A stretch of DNA of 64,000 bases from Modicisalibacter xianhensis (lineage in GTDB: Bacteria; Pseudomonadota; Gammaproteobacteria; Pseudomonadales; Halomonadaceae). The stretch is taken from positions 62,001 through 126,000 of the forward strand of contig NZ_FOPY01000004.1 in assembly GCF_900113605.1 (NCBI RefSeq), given 5' to 3'. The translations under genes were made by a program, and so were the position numbers. This document shows positions 33,531-59,976 of the stretch, piece after piece. Each line of letters opens with the position of its first letter. Position 1 is the stretch's first letter. The notes under the pieces were generated by a model that did no database searches, was not told the DNA's origin, and saw only the letters and a program-made list of their open reading frames with translations.

Positions 33531-34232
33531 TCAAGTATCGGCCAGTTTCGCACGCAGTCGCGCCACGGCCTGGCTGTGCAACTGACATACCCGTGATTCG
33601 CTGACCCCGAGCACCGCGCCAATTTCCTTGAGGTTCAGCTCTTCCTGATAATACAAGCCAAGCAGCAGTTTCTCGCGCTCGGGCAGACGCTCGATGGCCT
33701 CCACCAGACGCTGACGTTGTTCGTTGCCGGCCAAGGCATCGAAAGGCGATTGCGGCGAACGTTCGTCCGCTTCGGGCTCGCCGCCTTCGGCGACGATATC
33801 CTCGTAGCCGAGCAGTTGCCCTCCGTTGGTATCCGCCAGGCGCTGACGGTACTCCTCCAGCGTCAGCGACAGGGCTTCCGCAATTTCACGCTCTTCGGCC
33901 GGACGCCCCAGCTGTTGTTCCAGGGTGCGAATCGTTTCTTCGATTTCCCGGGCGTTGCGCCGGACGCTGCGCGGGACCCAGTCGCGGCTACGCAGCTCAT
34001 CGATCATGGCGCCACGAATACGCTGGCTGGCATACGTGGTAAAGCTCGCCCCCTGCGAGGCGTCATAACGCCCCATTGAGTCCAGCAAGCCAACCATGCC
34101 CGCCTGAATCAGATCATCGAGTTCGACACTGGCCGGCAGCTTCACCTGAAGCGCCAGCGCCTGCCGCCGCACGATGGGAAGGTATTGATCGAGTAATGCG
34201 CGTTGATCGATCTTGCCCTGTGCCGTGTACAT
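33531..34232 (-). CDS. fliA: Flagellar sigma factor FliA (sigma-28)
   Basis: 233 residues from the ATG at 34232 (GAGG upstream); a longer frame to 34265 is less likely. Region 2 includes LVELDDLIQAGMVGLL-type sequence and YDASQGASFTTYASQRIRGAMIDELR, the hallmark of FliA; region 3 has WVPRSVRRNAREIEETI; region 4 has LPEREKLLLGLYYQEELNLKEIGAVLGVSESRVCQLHSQA. It directs RNA polymerase to late flagellar and chemotaxis promoters; four matching promoters are visible in this window. FlgM, its inhibitor, is not encoded here. It is the last gene in the motility island. Confidence 0.96.
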   Translation of the reverse strand: MYTAQGKIDQRALLDQYLPIVRRQALALQVKLPASVELDDLIQAGMVGLLDSMGRYDASQGASFTTYASQRIRGAMIDELRSRDWVPRSVRRNAREIEETIRTLEQQLGRPAEEREIAEALSLTLEEYRQRLADTNGGQLLGYEDIVAEGGEPEADERSPQSPFDALAGNEQRQRLVEAIERLPEREKLLLGLYYQEELNLKEIGAVLGVSESRVCQLHSQAVARLRAKLADT

Positions 34233-34391
34233 TCCACTCGCCTCGAAAAGAGTAAGCGACAGCACATGAACCCATACGCTTGGCTGCCGATAGTTGCATT
34301 ATTACGTCGTCCCGACAGCGCCCAAGCATCGAAAACCCAGTATTGGCGTGGTTTATTCGTGCTTTAGCAAAATCTGGCAATAACGGTTGCG

Positions 34392-34811
34392 TTACTGATA
34401 ATCGACGATGACCTGCAGGCCTTCGACACGAAACGGCCTGTCCGGCTGGCGCCCCTTGGGAAGCCGGAAACGAAAATGCAGCGGCTGGTCCGCCGCCAGG
34501 CCGGCCAAGGCCTGACTGGTGCCGCGCGCGCCGCTCAAGCGGGTGCACTCCCGGGAAACGCAAAGCCAGGCTTGCAGATAGGGCTGCCCCGCAGAAACAT
34601 GGTATTGCCAGTGCACCTGACGAATGAAAGCGCCCTTGGCCAAGGGGCTGCCTGGCTTCAGCGGCTTCGATTCGACAATGCGATCCGCGGTGAACAGTCG
34701 TACCCCCTGCCCTGTGCCTACCCAACTACCCGATGCCGCCATGCCAAGGCCCGACACCACTAGGCAGCAGGTCAGCAAAACCAGTCCGAGACTGCGCTTG
34801 CCCATGTTCAT
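34392..34811 (-). CDS. flhE: Flagellar protein FlhE
   Basis: 139 residues. A signal peptide covers about residues 1-26 (ending Met-Ala-Ala-Ser-Gly), so the protein is periplasmic. The mature part matches FlhE in layout: GSWVGTGQGV at the start, two cysteines in CVSREC (about 83-88) and LHFRFRLPKG near the end. In enteric bacteria flhE follows flhBA and is needed to keep the export apparatus from leaking protons. Here flhF and a flhG-like gene are inserted between flhA and flhE. Its start overlaps the preceding gene by 4 bases. Confidence 0.85.
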   Translation of the reverse strand: MNMGKRSLGLVLLTCCLVVSGLGMAASGSWVGTGQGVRLFTADRIVESKPLKPGSPLAKGAFIRQVHWQYHVSAGQPYLQAWLCVSRECTRLSGARGTSQALAGLAADQPLHFRFRLPKGRQPDRPFRVEGLQVIVDYQ

Positions 34812-35323
34812 AGGCGCTTCCTGGGCTTCGTGAAGCCGATCATGACGAGTTGAATGTCAAAGAAGTGGGACGCCGCATCGCGCAGGTTACCCAGCAGGCC
34901 AGCCCCCGACAGCAAGGGTGGATGGACCATCAGCAAGCGGCGCGGCGCTGCCGGATGCCGGGCAAGCCCTTTCAAGGTGCGGTAGGCACGTCGAAACCCC
35001 TCTGCATCGTCGTCGACCCAAAGGGCCCAGCGCTTTTGCTGGCTGGCCAGAGCCGACAGATGCGGACTTTCCACATCCAGCGCCACCACACGCCAGGCCG
35101 AGGGATCGCCAACCCAGGACTGGCCCTGTGCCTGCCAGCGACATAATGCCCTCATGACAGGGGCCACATCGCTGTCTGCCCCTTCGGGCAGCCCCAGCGT
35201 CAACAATACGCGAGAAGGCGGCGTTTCATGCACCGGGCCGGGGGCCGGGGCCATGGCTTCGGCCCAGCGACGCAACCCTGCCGCCTGATCCGTCTGACTC
35301 ACCGTGCTTTCCTCGTCTTTCAC
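34808..35323 (-). CDS. FlhG/FleN-like protein without the ATPase P-loop
   Basis: 171 residues from a GTG that overlaps the flhF stop (GTGA); a second GTG at about residue 8 is possible. It sits where flhG/fleN normally follows flhF. Residues about 12-19 read DQAAGLRR, matching the N-terminal DQAxxLR motif by which FlhG stimulates the FlhF GTPase. What follows (SRVLLTLGLPEGADSDVAPV) lines up with the place of the FlhG Walker A (SGKGGVGKT) but has no glycine-lysine-threonine. The later parts, with hydrophobic strands and the segment RRAYRTLKGLA, look like a shrunken MinD-type fold; FlhG is usually about 270-300 residues. I infer a non-ATPase FlhF partner. Identity beyond the motif and position is uncertain. 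Confidence 0.6.
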   Translation of the reverse strand: MKDEESTVSQTDQAAGLRRWAEAMAPAPGPVHETPPSRVLLTLGLPEGADSDVAPVMRALCRWQAQGQSWVGDPSAWRVVALDVESPHLSALASQQKRWALWVDDDAEGFRRAYRTLKGLARHPAAPRRLLMVHPPLLSGAGLLGNLRDAASHFFDIQLVMIGFTKPRKRL

Positions 35324-37605
35324 TGCGCGCCGGCCAGGCGGAAGGCATCACGCGCTGTCAGCATGTGCATCAGCCCTTCCAGAAGTGCCGTGGACGAGCG
35401 TGTCCGGCGCCCTCCCAGCGCGGCCATCACTTGTGTCCTTACGTCCATTGCCCAGTCATTGCGCTCCTGATCAAGCCGCGAAGCCACTGCAGCCAACCCC
35501 GAGGCCACCAGAAGCTGCAGCTCGGGATCGAGCGGCGTACGACTCGCCTCGCCGATCAGCCGCCAGGCACGGCGTGTCAACAACGGCAAGTCGTCATGAA
35601 TCAACTGGGCGACCATGGCCTCGATAGCACATTGCTCATGAGTCTCGTCTTGTGGCGCCAACCAATAACGTTGCCCCAGCGGGCGTCCGGTCTCTGACTC
35701 GACCAACGTACCGAACCAGGCATGTAGCCGCTCGCCATCGTCCAGGGCAACGGCCCGACGGGACAACGCGAGACGCGCATCACGTCCGCGATAGCGGCAT
35801 GCCAGTTGCGTTCGTGCCTCGGCATCGCGGCTCAGATCGGCAAGCGCATGCCGCTCCGATGCCACCATGACCCGGGAATTGGCCTGCGCCATTGCCAGCC
35901 ACGCCATGCCGAGGTTGGCCAGCGTGTCGCGAGCCAGTCCCCCCGGGCAACTGGGCAACAGATGCCAGGCCGGGCCGAGTTCGGCTTCGGCCCACATCAG
36001 GCGTTCTGATTCGCCCGCGGGCTGCAGGTGCGCGAGCCAGGGCATGGCCTGGGCATGACCGGCCGCATTCAGGCTGAGGGCCGGCATGGCCCAATCCGTG
36101 CCGTTGACCGGCCTTGTCCGTCCCCACAGCAAGTGATGCATGGCTTCCTGCTGGCCATGCCGCACTCGCCGGTCGATGTCCAGTAATGCCGGAATCCGGG
36201 CACGCTGCTGCTCCAGCGGGTAACCCAGCATGGGCCAGGCCTCCTCGAGCAGGGCGAAGCCGGAAACCTGGCGACGCAGGACCGACAGAGACGCAGCCAA
36301 GGTGCGCCCTTGCCCCAACAGGCCTCGCGACAACGCCTGGATACGCTGCCCGGGGGATGGGGCTATCGGCATGTCGATGGCAAACGATGATTGTCCCGCG
36401 ACGCTGAGTGCCTGTTGGACGAGCGTATCCCGCTCTGCCAGGCTCAAGTCCTCCGGCACTTGCTGACCATGTGACAGGTAGTGCAGACACAAGCCATGGC
36501 GTATGGCAATGTCCAGCACCGCGCCCAGGCGTGGCGCCTCGTCGACCTTGGTCAGGATCGCACCGTAGAGCGGCGCCCCGGCTGCCAGCGAAGCACGCTG
36601 ATAGGTCTCGACCACTTCTTCGAGCGTATCGCCATGACTGGCGGCATTGAGCAACAGCAGGCGGCGGATCGGACGGCATTCCGTACCGCTCTGGCTATCG
36701 CCAAGCATGGCGATCTGACCTGCCAGGCGCTGGTCGCGCTGGCTCATGCCGACGGTATCGATGATTACCAGGCGCTTGTCGGTCAGCCGGGTCAACAGGT
36801 TGCCAAGCGGCGCATCCGCTTCCAGGGCGTGCACTTCCACGCCCAGCAGGCGGGCATAAATCCGCAACTGTTCGTGAGCCCCGATTCGGTAGCTGTCGGT
36901 CGTCACCAAGGCGACACCCCTGGCGCCATGGCGCATCACGTAACGTGCGGCCAGCTTGGCGGTGGTGGTCGTCTTGCCGATACCCGTCGGCCCGACCAGG
37001 GCAAACACGCCACCGGCATCGAGCAAGCCATCTTCGTCATCGAGCACGGACAAGCGTGACGCGAGCTGCCGGCCTAGCCAGGCCTGGGCCTGCGACTCGT
37101 CGGCAGTCAGCAGTTCGGTGGGCGGTGTCTCGAGCAGCTCCTGTGCCAGGCGCACCCCGAACCCCGCCGCATATAAGCGCTGCCGGAGCCGGTCGACGAG
37201 ACTCTCGCCGGCCGGTGTCGAGGACGTGTGCATCTGAGAGGCCAGCAAGGCCCGCAGGTCCTGCATTTCCCCTAGTACCCGTTCACTGAAGGCGGCGAAG
37301 TCGCCCGGTAGTTGCCCACCCGGCTGGGAGACGCTGACGGTGTCGGATACCTTAGGCGGTTCCGGTTCAGAAGATGACTGCGCGCCAGCCCACGCACCCG
37401 CCGACGGGGACGGGGAGCGCACCGCGGGCGAGGCCACACCGGTCGGCGCAGTCATCCGCCCATGTTCATCATCCGCCAGCGCCAAAATCTCGACGCCTTC
37501 GGGCACCTGGCGATTGGACAATATCAAAGCATCGTCACCCAAGGCTGCACGCACCTGGCGCATGGCCTCTCGACTGTTGATGCCTACGAAGCGCTTGACG
37601 CTCAT
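35320..37605 (-). CDS. flhF: SRP-type GTPase FlhF with long C-terminal extension
   Basis: 761 residues; FlhF is usually 360-500. N-terminal B domain (about 1-60: RFVGINSREAMRQVRAALG, DALILSNRQV), a Pro/Ser/Ala-rich linker (about 60-100), then N and G domains with G1 GPTGIGKTTTT (205-215), LVTTDSYRIGAHEQL, DTVGMSQRD (283-291) and TKVDEA (352-357). The GTPase fold should end near residue 400. Residues about 403-761 are an added region, rich in Ala, Leu, Trp and Gln, with no motif I recognise. FlhF fixes the site of flagellar assembly in polar flagellates. The start overlaps flhA by 4 bases and a short flhG-like gene follows. Confidence 0.88.
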   Translation of the reverse strand: MSVKRFVGINSREAMRQVRAALGDDALILSNRQVPEGVEILALADDEHGRMTAPTGVASPAVRSPSPSAGAWAGAQSSSEPEPPKVSDTVSVSQPGGQLPGDFAAFSERVLGEMQDLRALLASQMHTSSTPAGESLVDRLRQRLYAAGFGVRLAQELLETPPTELLTADESQAQAWLGRQLASRLSVLDDEDGLLDAGGVFALVGPTGIGKTTTTAKLAARYVMRHGARGVALVTTDSYRIGAHEQLRIYARLLGVEVHALEADAPLGNLLTRLTDKRLVIIDTVGMSQRDQRLAGQIAMLGDSQSGTECRPIRRLLLLNAASHGDTLEEVVETYQRASLAAGAPLYGAILTKVDEAPRLGAVLDIAIRHGLCLHYLSHGQQVPEDLSLAERDTLVQQALSVAGQSSFAIDMPIAPSPGQRIQALSRGLLGQGRTLAASLSVLRRQVSGFALLEEAWPMLGYPLEQQRARIPALLDIDRRVRHGQQEAMHHLLWGRTRPVNGTDWAMPALSLNAAGHAQAMPWLAHLQPAGESERLMWAEAELGPAWHLLPSCPGGLARDTLANLGMAWLAMAQANSRVMVASERHALADLSRDAEARTQLACRYRGRDARLALSRRAVALDDGERLHAWFGTLVESETGRPLGQRYWLAPQDETHEQCAIEAMVAQLIHDDLPLLTRRAWRLIGEASRTPLDPELQLLVASGLAAVASRLDQERNDWAMDVRTQVMAALGGRRTRSSTALLEGLMHMLTARDAFRLAGAQ

Positions 37606-39686
37606 TGACGTCCTCCGATCAGGGTAGTGACCCGCAGGGTACGGTCATCGGGAATTTCCGCCTGGGACAACACCGCGAGCTGGCGCAGGCGACGGCGCAG
37701 GAAGCGCGACAGCAGCGGCCGCAGCTCATGCTGGACGACCAGCACAGTCGGTTCGCCACTGGCTTCCTGACGCGCGACGCCGGCTTCCGACTGGGTCATC
37801 AGGGTGTCGGCCAGCCCCGGCTCGAGGGCACCGCCGCCGTGTAGCGCCTGGCTCAGGACCTGTTCGAGGTTAGCGTCCAGACCGATCACGTGCAGCTCGT
37901 CATGTCCCGGGAACCACTGCTGGGTAATGGCACGGCCCAGGGCAATACGTACCATGGCGGTCAACTCATGCGCGTCGCTCTGCGGCGAGCCATGCTCGGC
38001 CAAGGTATCGAGGATGGTACGCAGGTCACGGATCGAGACATCTTCCTCGAGCAGGTTCTGCAGCAGGCGCTGCAACGTGGTCAGCGAGACCAGCTTGGGC
38101 ACCACGTCCTCGACCAGCGTCTTGCTCTCGTCGGCCAGCTTGTCGAGCAGTTGCTGGACTTCCTGGCGGCCCAGCATTTCACCGGCATGGCGGTGCAGCA
38201 GGTGGTTGAGGTGCGTCGCGACCACCGTGCCGGCATCCACCACCGTGTAGCCATAGACCTGGGCGTGCTCGCGCTGGTTGCTGTCGATCCACACCGCCGG
38301 CAGGCCGAAGGCGGGATCCTGGGTCGGGGTGCCCTCGAGGTGGCCCGAGACCTGACCGGGATCGATGGCCAGCCATTTGCCGGGATAGGCCTCGGCACGC
38401 CCGATCTCGGCGCCCTTGAGGGTAATGACGTAGGTGTTGGGCCCCAGCTCGAGATTGTCGCGAATGTGCACCACGGGCGGCAGGAAACCGACTTCCTGGG
38501 CAAACTTCTTGCGTACGCTCTTGATGCGTCCCAGCAATTCACCACCCTGGCGATGATCGACCATGGGAATCAGGCGATGGCCAACCTCGAGCCCCAGGGT
38601 ATCGACCAGTTGCACATCGTCCCAACTCGCCTCAGGCACTTCCTGCTGCGCCGGCGCGGCTGCCGTATTGATGGTTTCTTCGGCCAGTTTTTCGTCGGCA
38701 CGACGCATCATCCACCAGGCCAGACCACCCAGCAGGACGGTAAAAAGCAGGAACACGAAGTTGGGCATGCCCGGCACCAGGCCCAGCAGGCCCATGACGC
38801 ACGCCGCAAGAATCAGCACCTGGGGCTTGTTGAACAGCTGGCCCATCATCTGCTGGCCAACATCCTGCTCGGTGTTGACACGGGATACGGTGACACCGGC
38901 CGCAGTGGAGATCACCAACGCAGGGATCTGCGCCACCAGCCCGTCGCCGATGGTCAGCAGCGTATAGGTCCGCGCGGCATCGCCAAAGGCCATGTCGTGC
39001 TGCATCACACCGATCAGCAGGCCGCCGATGAGGTTGACCACCATGATGATCAGGCCGGCCACGGCGTCACCGCGCACGAACTTGCTGGCGCCGTCCATGG
39101 AACCGTAGAAATCCGATTCCTGGGAAATCTCGCCACGACGGCGCTTGGCGTCTTCCTCGCCGATCAGCCCGGCATTGAGATCGGCATCGATGGCCATCTG
39201 CTTGCCCGGCATGGAATCGAGCATGAAGCGCGCGCCGACTTCGGCAATACGCCCGGCACCCTTGGTGATGACCATGAAGTTGATGATGACCAGGATCAGG
39301 AACACAACCAGGCCCACGGCGAAGTTGCCACCGATGAGGAATTCACCGAATGCCTCGATGACCTTGCCCGCTGCGTCGCCGCCTTCATCGCCTTCCATCA
39401 GTACCACACGGGTCGAGGCGACGTTGAGCGACAGGCGCAGCAGCGTGGTGAACAGCAGCACGGCGGGAAACGCCGCGAAGTCCAGCGGCTTTTCAGTGAA
39501 CATGCTGACCAGCAGCACCATGATCGACAGCGCGATGTTGAAGGTGAAGAACAGGTCCAGTGCGAACGGCGGCAGGGGCAGGATCATCATCGACAGAATC
39601 ATGATGATCAGTACCGGACCGGCCAGCAGCTTCATATGGGCATTGCCCAGCAAGTTCTGACGACCCAGAGAATCCAGCAGGTTCAT
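37602..39686 (-). CDS. flhA: Flagellar export gate protein FlhA
   Basis: 694 residues: eight membrane helices in the first ~330, then the large cytoplasmic domain that binds export chaperones. The FHIPEP family block is clear: GAGRIAEVGARFMLDSMPGKQ, DADLNAGLI, EESDFYGSMDGASKFVRGDA-like sequence (about 165-210). FlhA forms the nonameric gate ring of the flagellar type III export machine and couples it to the proton motive force. It overlaps flhB upstream and flhF downstream by 4 bases each, so the three are translated together. The long opposite-strand frame over this gene is a coding shadow. Confidence 0.96.
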   Translation of the reverse strand: MNLLDSLGRQNLLGNAHMKLLAGPVLIIMILSMMILPLPPFALDLFFTFNIALSIMVLLVSMFTEKPLDFAAFPAVLLFTTLLRLSLNVASTRVVLMEGDEGGDAAGKVIEAFGEFLIGGNFAVGLVVFLILVIINFMVITKGAGRIAEVGARFMLDSMPGKQMAIDADLNAGLIGEEDAKRRRGEISQESDFYGSMDGASKFVRGDAVAGLIIMVVNLIGGLLIGVMQHDMAFGDAARTYTLLTIGDGLVAQIPALVISTAAGVTVSRVNTEQDVGQQMMGQLFNKPQVLILAACVMGLLGLVPGMPNFVFLLFTVLLGGLAWWMMRRADEKLAEETINTAAAPAQQEVPEASWDDVQLVDTLGLEVGHRLIPMVDHRQGGELLGRIKSVRKKFAQEVGFLPPVVHIRDNLELGPNTYVITLKGAEIGRAEAYPGKWLAIDPGQVSGHLEGTPTQDPAFGLPAVWIDSNQREHAQVYGYTVVDAGTVVATHLNHLLHRHAGEMLGRQEVQQLLDKLADESKTLVEDVVPKLVSLTTLQRLLQNLLEEDVSIRDLRTILDTLAEHGSPQSDAHELTAMVRIALGRAITQQWFPGHDELHVIGLDANLEQVLSQALHGGGALEPGLADTLMTQSEAGVARQEASGEPTVLVVQHELRPLLSRFLRRRLRQLAVLSQAEIPDDRTLRVTTLIGGRQ

Positions 39687-40849
39687 TGAGCATCCTCGGA
39701 AGGTGATTCGCGCCGCGTGGCGTCGTCGAGTTCAGCGGGTACCGGCAGATTGCGCGGCGTGTCGGGCATATCGCCGCCTTCACGACGGACTTGCTTGAGG
39801 CGAAATGCCCAGGCCAGCACCTCGGCCACGGCGGTATAGAGATCAGCCGGAATTTCCCGGTCGAGATCGACATGACGATACAGGGCACGCGCCAGCGGCG
39901 GCGCCTCGAGTCGGGGTACGTTGTGCTCGTCGCCTAGCTCGCGGATGCGCGCCGCCACCGCGTCCACGCCCTTGGCGACGACACGCGGCGCACCCATTTC
40001 ACCGTCACGGTAACTCAGGGCAACGGCGTAGTGCGTCGGGTTGGTGACGATGACATCCGCCTCGGGCACCTTGCTCATCATTCGCCCACGGGCCATCGCC
40101 TGCTGCTGTTGGCGAATACGTCCCTTGACGTGCGGATCGCCCTCGGACTCCTTGTGCTCCTTCTTGATCTCGTCCTTGGTCATGCGCAGCTTCTTGTTGT
40201 GACTCCAGAGCTGATAAGGCACATCGATCAGAATGACCACGATCAGCGACAGTACGATCAGGCCACAACACAGCGCGGCCAGCTTGAGCGCATGAAACAG
40301 AGCGATCTCGAGCGGCTGGTCCATCAGGGCCAGAAACTCACCGCGCCTGGACCACAAGAAGCCGATCGCCACGCTGCCGGTCAGCAACGATTTGGCAATG
40401 GCCTTGAAAAGTTCGGCCAGCGCCTGGGTGGAAAACATCCGCTTGAGACCCTTGAGCGGATTGAGCTTGGAGAACTGAGGCTTCAAGGACTTTCCGGAAA
40501 TCAGCCAGCCGCCCAGCAGCGCCGGTGCGATCAACGCCACGACGGTCAACAACAAGAACAGCGGGACCAGCGCAATCAGGGTATGTGTCCCGAGCGCCCA
40601 GAAATTCGCCAGCATCAAGGCACTATCGAAGGCAATGCTTCGCTCGAACAGAAAGGTCTGTTCCATCATCAGCCCAAGCTGGTCATAGAGCAGCGAGCCC
40701 ATGGCCCACAGGCTGGCGACACCTGCCATCAACATCATGAAGGTGGCAAGCTCTCGGGAACGGGCAACCTGGCCTTCTTCACGCGCCTTTTCAATGCGTC
40801 GTGGCGTTGGCTCTTCGGTCTTGTCTTCCTGGCTGGTCTCGTCGGCCAT
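39683..40849 (-). CDS. flhB: Flagellar export switch protein FlhB
   Basis: 388 residues. N-terminal KTEEPTPRRIEKAREEGQVARS is the family signature; four membrane helices follow (about 30-210). The cytoplasmic domain has the self-cleaving NPTHYAVAL motif (about residue 268), where cleavage between Asn and Pro switches export from hook to filament substrates. The C-terminal 40 residues are a charged, Pro-rich tail. It is first in flhB-flhA-flhF-(flhG-like)-flhE. A second, free copy of the FlhB C-terminal domain is encoded at 60282. Confidence 0.96.
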   Translation of the reverse strand: MADETSQEDKTEEPTPRRIEKAREEGQVARSRELATFMMLMAGVASLWAMGSLLYDQLGLMMEQTFLFERSIAFDSALMLANFWALGTHTLIALVPLFLLLTVVALIAPALLGGWLISGKSLKPQFSKLNPLKGLKRMFSTQALAELFKAIAKSLLTGSVAIGFLWSRRGEFLALMDQPLEIALFHALKLAALCCGLIVLSLIVVILIDVPYQLWSHNKKLRMTKDEIKKEHKESEGDPHVKGRIRQQQQAMARGRMMSKVPEADVIVTNPTHYAVALSYRDGEMGAPRVVAKGVDAVAARIRELGDEHNVPRLEAPPLARALYRHVDLDREIPADLYTAVAEVLAWAFRLKQVRREGGDMPDTPRNLPVPAELDDATRRESPSEDAQ

Positions 40850-59049: not shown

Positions 59050-59643
59050 TCAGGCCTGGCGAGCCTGCACCATCGGCAAGGCATCGTCATCGCACTTGGC
59101 CCGGCGACCCGCTTCGATCGCCTCGCGACGCTTGCGCGTCTTGCCGGCTCGCGACGGCGGCTGGCAAATGCCGCAGACAAAATCGTGAGAGGGGGTATGC
59201 GCATGCACCACGAAGCGGCCACTGCAACTGGTGCATTTGCTCAACTCCAGCATGTCGCTTTCGAAGAAACGCACCAGCGTCCAGGCCCGTGTCAGCCCGA
59301 GCACCGGCTCGGCGTCTTCAATCGCAAGTTGTTCGAGATAGAGCCGAAACGCCCTGACGAACGCGCTCATGCGCTCGCAACCGTGGTCGTTCACCAGGCG
59401 CTCGTAGATGTTGTAGAACAATGACGAGTGAATGTTCGGCAACCAGGTGATGAACCAGTCGGTGGAGAACGGCAGCATGCCCTTGGGTGGAGACATGCCG
59501 CGCACCTCCTTGTACAGCTTGATCAAGCGTGCACGACTCAGGTCGGTTTCCGTTTCGAGTACCTGCAGCCTGGCACCGAGTTCAATCAACTCGATGGCCA
59601 TCTGGACCTGCTGCATCTCGCTGACCAGACTCTTCTCGGCCAT
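59050..59643 (-). CDS. flhC: Flagellar master regulator subunit FlhC
   Basis: 197 residues. Helical N-terminal part binding DNA with FlhD, then the zinc site made of two pairs: CTSC (about 138-141) and CGIC (about 157-160). FlhD4C2 activates the early (class II) flagellar operons including fliA. It starts six bases after flhD. The C-terminal tail is basic. No class II box could be assigned with confidence from the sequence alone. Confidence 0.94.
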   Translation of the reverse strand: MAEKSLVSEMQQVQMAIELIELGARLQVLETETDLSRARLIKLYKEVRGMSPPKGMLPFSTDWFITWLPNIHSSLFYNIYERLVNDHGCERMSAFVRAFRLYLEQLAIEDAEPVLGLTRAWTLVRFFESDMLELSKCTSCSGRFVVHAHTPSHDFVCGICQPPSRAGKTRKRREAIEAGRRAKCDDDALPMVQARQA

Positions 59644-59649
59644 GTCGAC

Positions 59650-59976
59650 TTACCCCGCCTGGAGATTGGAGCGGGTCGGCACGGAGGCCATCAGCAGCGC
59701 CGCATGTGTCTGCCCCAGGCCCTGCTCGCGCGGGTCGGTGGTGAGCTTGAGCAACTGTTCGGGATCGTCGAAGCACAGGCGGCACAGCAACTGGTTGGTA
59801 CGCGACAGTTGGCCCAGTTGCTTTACGGACAACGAAGCCAGCATATCGGCCATGGGTTCGCTGATCTTGAGGCGGAACATGGCAGTGGTACGGTCTTCAT
59901 TGATGAGGCGCTGTACCAGCAGCAGGTACGAGAGGTTGATGTCCTGGATGTCGTTCAGAAGGCTGTCAGTCAACAT
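59650..59976 (-). CDS. flhD: Flagellar master regulator subunit FlhD
   Basis: 108 residues, within the usual 100-119. The pattern INLSYLLLVQRLINEDRTTAMFRL followed by LASLSVKQLGQLSRTNQLLCRLCF is the FlhD helical fold; the paired cysteines near residue 65-70 include the site of the inter-subunit disulfide known in E. coli. AGGGAA precedes the ATG. It forms the FlhD4C2 activator with FlhC. Confidence 0.94.
   Translation of the reverse strand: MLTDSLLNDIQDINLSYLLLVQRLINEDRTTAMFRLKISEPMADMLASLSVKQLGQLSRTNQLLCRLCFDDPEQLLKLTTDPREQGLGQTHAALLMASVPTRSNLQAG

Follow-up and report, generated by a model that had tools for sequence, protein, structure and literature searches.

In many bacteria the FlhF/FlhG switch sets how many flagella are made and where; activation of the FlhF GTPase and MinD-type ATPase cycling normally reside in one protein. 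Flagella of the enterobacterial type are governed by the master regulator FlhDC. In part of a 2025 review, the enhancer helix of FlhG is described as stimulating the FlhF GTPase through a conserved glutamine, which completes the FlhF GTPase site (PMC12826062). Pseudomonad FleN lacks the DQAxxLR motif of this helix, according to a passage of PMC12713375.

The gene considered here, which we refer to as the stub, lies in a 64,000-nucleotide stretch of the Modicisalibacter xianhensis genome (the window). It shares with FlhG/YlxH, the MinD-type ATPase and FlhF activator, its place after flhF, an N-terminal DQAxxLR helix and a likeness of modelled fold; unlike FlhG/YlxH, it is devoid of Walker A, of recognisable second and switch II motifs and of the C-terminal membrane-targeting part. 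With Pseudomonas FleN it has family and gene position in common; otherwise it is the mirror image of that protein, since FleN has the ATPase without DQAxxLR and the stub the motif without the ATPase. Two FlhGs from the same order (L074 and L075) lack the motif, as FleN does. The FlhGs of Burkholderiaceae (Cupriavidus and Burkholderia glumae), like the stub, follow flhF and have kept the DQA helix while losing the P-loop lysines; unlike the stub, they are still about 270 aa long and can be aligned to FlhG along their whole length.

The short gene downstream of flhF

Genes on the minus strand of the window run in the order flhB-flhA-flhF-stub-flhE-fliA. The features relevant to this analysis are:

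33531..34265, minus strand: fliA, sigma-28 (NF005413, E = 1.2e-97)
34392..34811, minus strand: flhE (Pfam FlhE, E = 3.6e-19)
34808..35323, minus strand: FlhG stub, an ORF of 171 aa as called, between flhF and flhE; identified by gene order and modelled fold
34835..35215, minus strand: reduced alpha/beta domain of the stub, putative FlhG/MinD-fold remnant without P-loop (AlphaFold2 pLDDT 88-98 in 10-residue blocks from 41 to 160; Foldseek matches to FleN/FlhG; hhalign; dN/dS 0.125)
35270..35290, minus strand: DQAAGLR codons, the motif of the FlhF-activating (enhancer) helix of FlhG, present in 25/25 members
35320..37605, minus strand: flhF, 761 aa, GTPase motifs intact (Pfam SRP54, E = 5e-31; TIGR03499, E = 3.7e-71)
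35323..36384, minus strand: C-terminal extension of FlhF, 354 aa (residues about 408-761), with a predicted Tn5-transposase-like fold
37602..39686, minus strand: flhA, named from sequence and position; used for homologues and trees
39683..40849, minus strand: flhB, named from position and sequence only
59050..59643, minus strand: flhC, master regulator (Pfam FlhC, E = 6.9e-86)
59650..59976, minus strand: flhD, master regulator (Pfam FlhD, E = 1.2e-34)

Overlaps of 4 nt occur at the flhA/flhF, flhF/stub (GTGA, containing the flhF stop) and stub/flhE (ATGA, containing the flhE start) junctions; by these overlaps, the stub looks translationally coupled. The first-pass annotation had noted a 171-residue ORF beside flhF, with DQAAGLR near its start and no Walker A, and was accurate on all three points. 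The motif occupies residues 12-18 of the ORF as called from the GTG at 35323. An alternative GTG at 35302, preceded by a GAGGAAAG stretch, gives a protein of 164 aa that begins 4 residues before the D of the motif. Since the nearest possible start codon is found 1-5 residues ahead of the motif in 24 of 25 members of the family, this second GTG is the likelier true start. Chance occurrence of the motif was discarded: the expected number of DQAxxLR occurrences in the first 20 residues is about 4e-5 for a protein of such composition.

The Walker A P-loop, sought as KGGxGK[ST], is absent from the window protein and from all 78 loci of the named-genome scan described below, and no second or switch II motif of FlhG can be recognised in the stub. 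No Pfam or NCBIfam model matches the protein at E up to 1. Searches of Pfam, NCBIfam and PDB sequences with the stub or its relatives yielded nothing useful, the window protein hitting a single PDB sequence at E 1.2. The AlphaFold2 model (mean pLDDT 88.5) shows a helix at residues 11-23 followed by a five-strand alpha/beta domain. No C-terminal membrane-targeting helix is present in it; the chain stops shortly after the last strand, residues 161-171 being coil.

Distribution and conservation of the stub

When the window protein was searched against 58 genomes, its own included, 24 matched, all of them within its own family. DQAxGLR is present in all 24 matched ORFs. In nine of these the top-scoring match starts downstream of the motif, and in three of the nine a second, weaker piece covers it. 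A 25th member (L063), located by position and missed by the whole-protein search, carries the motif as well. Poor conservation of DQAxxLR in relatives, together with a full-length FlhG elsewhere in the genome, had been named at the outset as evidence that would speak against an FlhG reduced to an FlhF regulator; for the motif the opposite was seen, with DQAxGLR in 25/25 members that had not been selected by motif. The genome of the 25th member (G028) has a split operon, with flhF and its highly divergent stub at 1.94 Mb and the best flhA match at 3.32 Mb.

A survey of the whole family gave matches in 174 of 275 genomes, the weakest of which, at E near 1e-3, were not inspected, and none in the other 101. 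The best 30 loci of this survey all carry the motif; 11 of them belong to genomes beyond the 24. A scan of named genomes returned 78 loci; as it required DQA[AS]GLR[REQ]W, the motif is built into these loci, which are therefore no test of its conservation. They come from several Halomonadaceae genera, Azotobacter vinelandii, A. chroococcum, Pseudomonas linyingensis, P. sagittaria, Stutzerimonas, a few other Pseudomonas, and Pseudidiomarina and Aliidiomarina among the Idiomarinaceae. The order flhA-flhF-stub was found in every one of the 77 loci (out of 78) that hold flhA and flhF. All 78 contain fliA, and flhE was detected by BLAST in 68, the exceptions being six Idiomarinaceae and four Pseudomonas loci. 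Reduction of an FlhG, as the first-pass annotation had proposed for this gene, is supported and reaches wider than was suspected: the stub extends beyond Halomonadaceae, and full-length FlhGs without a P-loop occur in Burkholderiaceae.

Stubs range from 131 to about 295 aa, the long ones owing their length to the linker only. In an alignment of 50 members, 46 of which derive from the motif-requiring scan, the motif residues D, Q, A, G, L and R never vary, and the linker that follows spans 8 to 167 residues. Invariant Trp, Leu and Ala residues are also found outside the motif. Over 44 pairs at least 75% identical, dN/dS was 0.125 for the domain and 0.48 for the linker. The motif codons of the same pairs showed 0 nonsynonymous against 97 synonymous differences, a ratio that is uninformative alone because nearly all rows stem from the scan requiring the motif. 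A functionless pseudogene was rejected on the domain dN/dS.

Relationship to FlhG and order of states in the FlhA tree

Matching of the stub model against PDB structures with Foldseek placed FleN/FlhG at all of ranks 1-7, with E 3.6e-4 to 4.9e-3; other MinD/ParA proteins ranked lower. A structure unrelated to MinD/FlhG had been named beforehand as an outcome that would contradict a reduced FlhG; the seven top-ranking structures are all of the FleN/FlhG type, though TM-scores are low (0.33-0.41 for these ranks, 0.33-0.45 across the FleN/FlhG structures listed). A stub profile stripped of the motif aligned with FlhG by hhalign at P = 8e-4; with four betaproteobacterial FlhGs, that of L224 and two more added, P became 1.5e-4 over 74 columns. 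The aligned region is collinear, running from the SITDAYALIK helix of FlhG through the following helix and strand. Sequence likeness is modest, the hhalign probability between stub domain and FlhG being 25-51%. In a comparison with the 8242 ORFs of the fetched loci, a set enriched in FlhG, the 26 best rows after the stubs themselves included 24 proteins retrieved as FlhG matches (E about 1e-3 to 6e-2), the remaining two rows being one Cupriavidus FlhF. In canonical FlhG the motif precedes an intact P-loop in 15 of 18 genomes.

The possibility that a full-length FlhG is encoded elsewhere in the genome, also raised beforehand, was examined in the window's assembly, which is listed as 100% complete. 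None was found: of five matches to a canonical FlhG, the best, which is the one that was typed, is a ParA/MinD-type protein 28% identical to the query (E 1.7e-16). By comparison, 17 canonical FlhGs are 54-83% identical to the same query.

An alternative is that the stub is not derived from FlhG and represents an unrelated small alpha/beta protein that gained an FlhG-like N-terminal helix. The weak similarity of its domain to FlhG and the lack of any Pfam or NCBIfam match would fit such an origin, which we nevertheless regard as very improbable, given that the gene sits where flhG does, that the leading PDB matches are specifically FleN/FlhG rather than other MinD/ParA proteins, that the profile alignment is collinear over the SITDAYALIK region and the helix and strand beyond it, and that full-length FlhGs combining the helix with a dead P-loop exist.

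Such FlhGs are those of Cupriavidus and B. glumae, in which DQAE(S/G)LR is kept and the P-loop lysine is gone (GAGATT, GAGTTT, GVGTTT or GVGCT). The betaproteobacterial picture comes from five plasmid records of four species, four records having been examined:

L249:6491-7303, L250:6521-7321, L343:4001-4771 and L341:2986-3798: P-loop-lysine-less FlhG of Cupriavidus or B. glumae, DQAE(S/G)LRR kept

In its annotation the B. glumae gene is named FlhG without qualification. When the class and the phylum were surveyed with the Cupriavidus FlhG, no full-length protein among the matches listed exceeded 35% identity, although shorter pieces reached 51%.

In a midpoint-rooted FlhA gene tree of 39 rows, the states run from canonical FlhG, through damaged motifs in one genome and full-length proteins without P-loop lysines, to the stub clade. 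After the first canonical FlhGs come two further genomes with canonical FlhG (G321 and G466), the next node carrying 100/99. G616 branches after them (next node 100/97); its FlhG (L224:3453-4331) keeps DQATGLR and GKT, but the signature lysine is missing from its P-loop (TGSAKGVGKT) and the second motif is altered. This protein, known from one genome and with GKT still present, is an apparent intermediate of ATPase loss. Cupriavidus and B. glumae form a clade (98/94) that does not include L343, which is not in the tree. E. coli, which has neither flhF nor flhG (K-12 has flhBAE only), follows with a next node of 99/95 and falls within a group in which the P-loop of FlhG is already missing. Whether flhF and flhG were never acquired by enterobacteria or were lost from them is left undecided in section 12 of the review cited above (PMC12826062). 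The stub clade itself is recovered at 99/97, and at 97/90 in a first FlhA tree of 46 rows; the complete losses, E. coli and G465, branch beside it. G465, where flhE comes after flhA with no flhF or flhG between, groups with G020 (100/97). In G020 (locus L062) a long FlhF is directly followed by flhE, the stub being naturally absent; hence the stub can be lost.

The FlhF extension and the role of the stub

The partner protein matches the model for the SRP-type GTPase domain (TIGR03499, 240.5 bits against a cut-off of 174.15). G1 and G2-type patterns are found in 90 of 91 distinct FlhF ORFs of at least 690 aa; the G4 pattern, which was too narrow, matched just 33 of the 91. Among 37 genomes of the family, 30 have an FlhF over the cut-off. 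The stub occurs in 25 of the 26 whose FlhF exceeds 700 aa and in none of the four whose FlhF measures 428-477 aa (Fisher p 1.8e-4, uncorrected for relatedness). These four belong to the canonical FlhA clade and have fliA directly after flhF. In a sample of the class, the extension was detected in 3 of 369 genomes, the same three that have the stub, a fourth match to the stub profile being a real FlhG. Most of the extension profile also aligns with the C-terminal regions of FlhF in three Cupriavidus FlhFs (E 8.9e-8 to 9.8e-6). The B. glumae FlhF (574 aa) has no extension, which indicates that loss of the P-loop and presence of the extension are not always paired.

AlphaFold2 modelled the extension at pLDDT 92.1. 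Foldseek placed Tn5 transposase/inhibitor structures at ranks 1-6 (E 2e-8 to 3.2e-7, probability 1.00, TM up to 0.51), rank 7 falling to E 0.06. The idea that the extension might be a displaced FlhG/MinD domain was dropped, its PDB matches being to Tn5 instead. At the sequence level, Pfam gives nothing for the extension of the window FlhF at E up to 10, neither Pfam nor PDB sequences link the extension to a transposase, and the Tn5 dimerisation domain PF02281 has no match in the window's genome. A BFVD search returned nothing at E below 1e-3. Compared with seven IS4-type transposases, the extension profile gave hhalign P values of 0.095 and 0.084, collinear with positions 207-319 of the Tn5 profile. 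Residues D97, D188 and E326, which we take to be the catalytic DDE triad of Tn5 transposase, are invariant in those seven proteins. Across 21 extensions, no column that is invariant or nearly so is acidic, the best D/E column reaching 90%, and an active DDE transposase is therefore unlikely. The extension would share its predicted fold with Tn5 transposase/inhibitor and differ from it in showing no significant sequence similarity and no invariant acid and in being fused to a GTPase. We treat kinship with Tn5 transposase as a strong structural lead rather than as established homology. If confirmed, it would represent an unexpected reuse of a transposase fold in cell architecture.

The stub has no P-loop, no recognisable switch motif and no membrane-targeting end, so that it is not expected to go through the FlhG ATP cycle, and an ATP-independent activator is its best reading. 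We consider it probable that the window gene is a descendant of flhG reduced to such an activator of FlhF. In this proposal the stub would have retained the N-terminal DQAxGLR helix, which a variable linker joins to a portion of the former MinD-like fold; P-loop, recognisable switch motifs and the C-terminal part bearing the membrane-targeting helix would have been lost. The stub would bind the GTP-bound FlhF dimer and trigger hydrolysis, and neither ATP-driven dimerisation nor a membrane cycle would be needed. FlhF would be reset continuously, or else under control of a kind other than ATP, for example by the long FlhF extension of the same genomes.

The helix could alternatively have been kept as a docking peptide, the stub serving as an adaptor between FlhF, or its extension, and a further partner. 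Co-occurrence with the extension agrees with this, as do the constraint on the domain and the invariant Trp, Leu and Ala outside the motif, by which the stub would do more than carry the helix; yet conservation peaks precisely at the catalytic motif, glutamine included, and the G1 and G2-type motifs of FlhF are intact, and we hold an adaptor to be unlikely. That the stub is a decaying, functionless remnant on its way to complete loss, as in E. coli, is barely credible. Related lineages without it do exist (G020, G465 and E. coli K-12); against decay stand the selection acting on the domain in 44 close pairs, the breadth of the matches in the family survey (the weakest of them uninspected) and a motif that stays constant while the length of the linker ranges between 8 and 167 residues.

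Joining ATP-independent activation by the stub to the Tn5 lead gives a broader scenario, which we put forward tentatively and with some doubt. An FlhDC-type lineage may have abandoned the MinD-like ATPase by which flagella are counted and placed, FlhG turning into a GTPase-activating stub and FlhF acquiring, by fusion, a domesticated Tn5-type transposase domain without catalytic activity, and with it a new dimerisation or DNA-tethering surface; flagellar placement would then depend on an ATP-independent FlhF/stub switch of which one part derives from a transposon.

Taken with its relatives, the stub belongs to a natural separation-of-function series: ATPase without helix in pseudomonad FleN, both in most canonical FlhGs examined, helix with a dead P-loop in Burkholderiaceae, helix on a stub in Halomonadaceae, Azotobacter and Idiomarinaceae, and nothing in E. 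coli. It allows FlhF activation and ATP-driven control to be studied apart. Among the matches listed in a literature that included few subscription papers, titles and abstract openings describe no P-loop-less or shortened FlhG and no FlhF extension.

No single flagellation pattern goes with the stub. Parts of PMC5031763 describe A. vinelandii flagella as peritrichous and FlhDC-dependent, with no mention of flhF or flhG in those parts, and, in P. fluorescens F113, the second flagella, which FlhDC drives, as a polar tuft; a passage of PMC4465626 cites counts of 1 or 2 flagella in cells of A. vinelandii strains O and OP. Four family loci (L058, L059, L060 and L061, from G015, G017, G034 and G036) have the polar-type arrangement flhA-flhF-fliA-cheY-cheZ and a short FlhF; at these loci no flhG lies between flhF and fliA. 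The shortest stubs (131-135 aa) are found in four Pseudomonas loci (L144, L149, L150 and L151), which possibly correspond to the additional flagellar cluster, of FlhDC type, that P. fluorescens F113 is known to have. FlhF measures just 570-577 aa in these four, and the extension is cut to 259 aa in the two where it was measured (L144 and L149).
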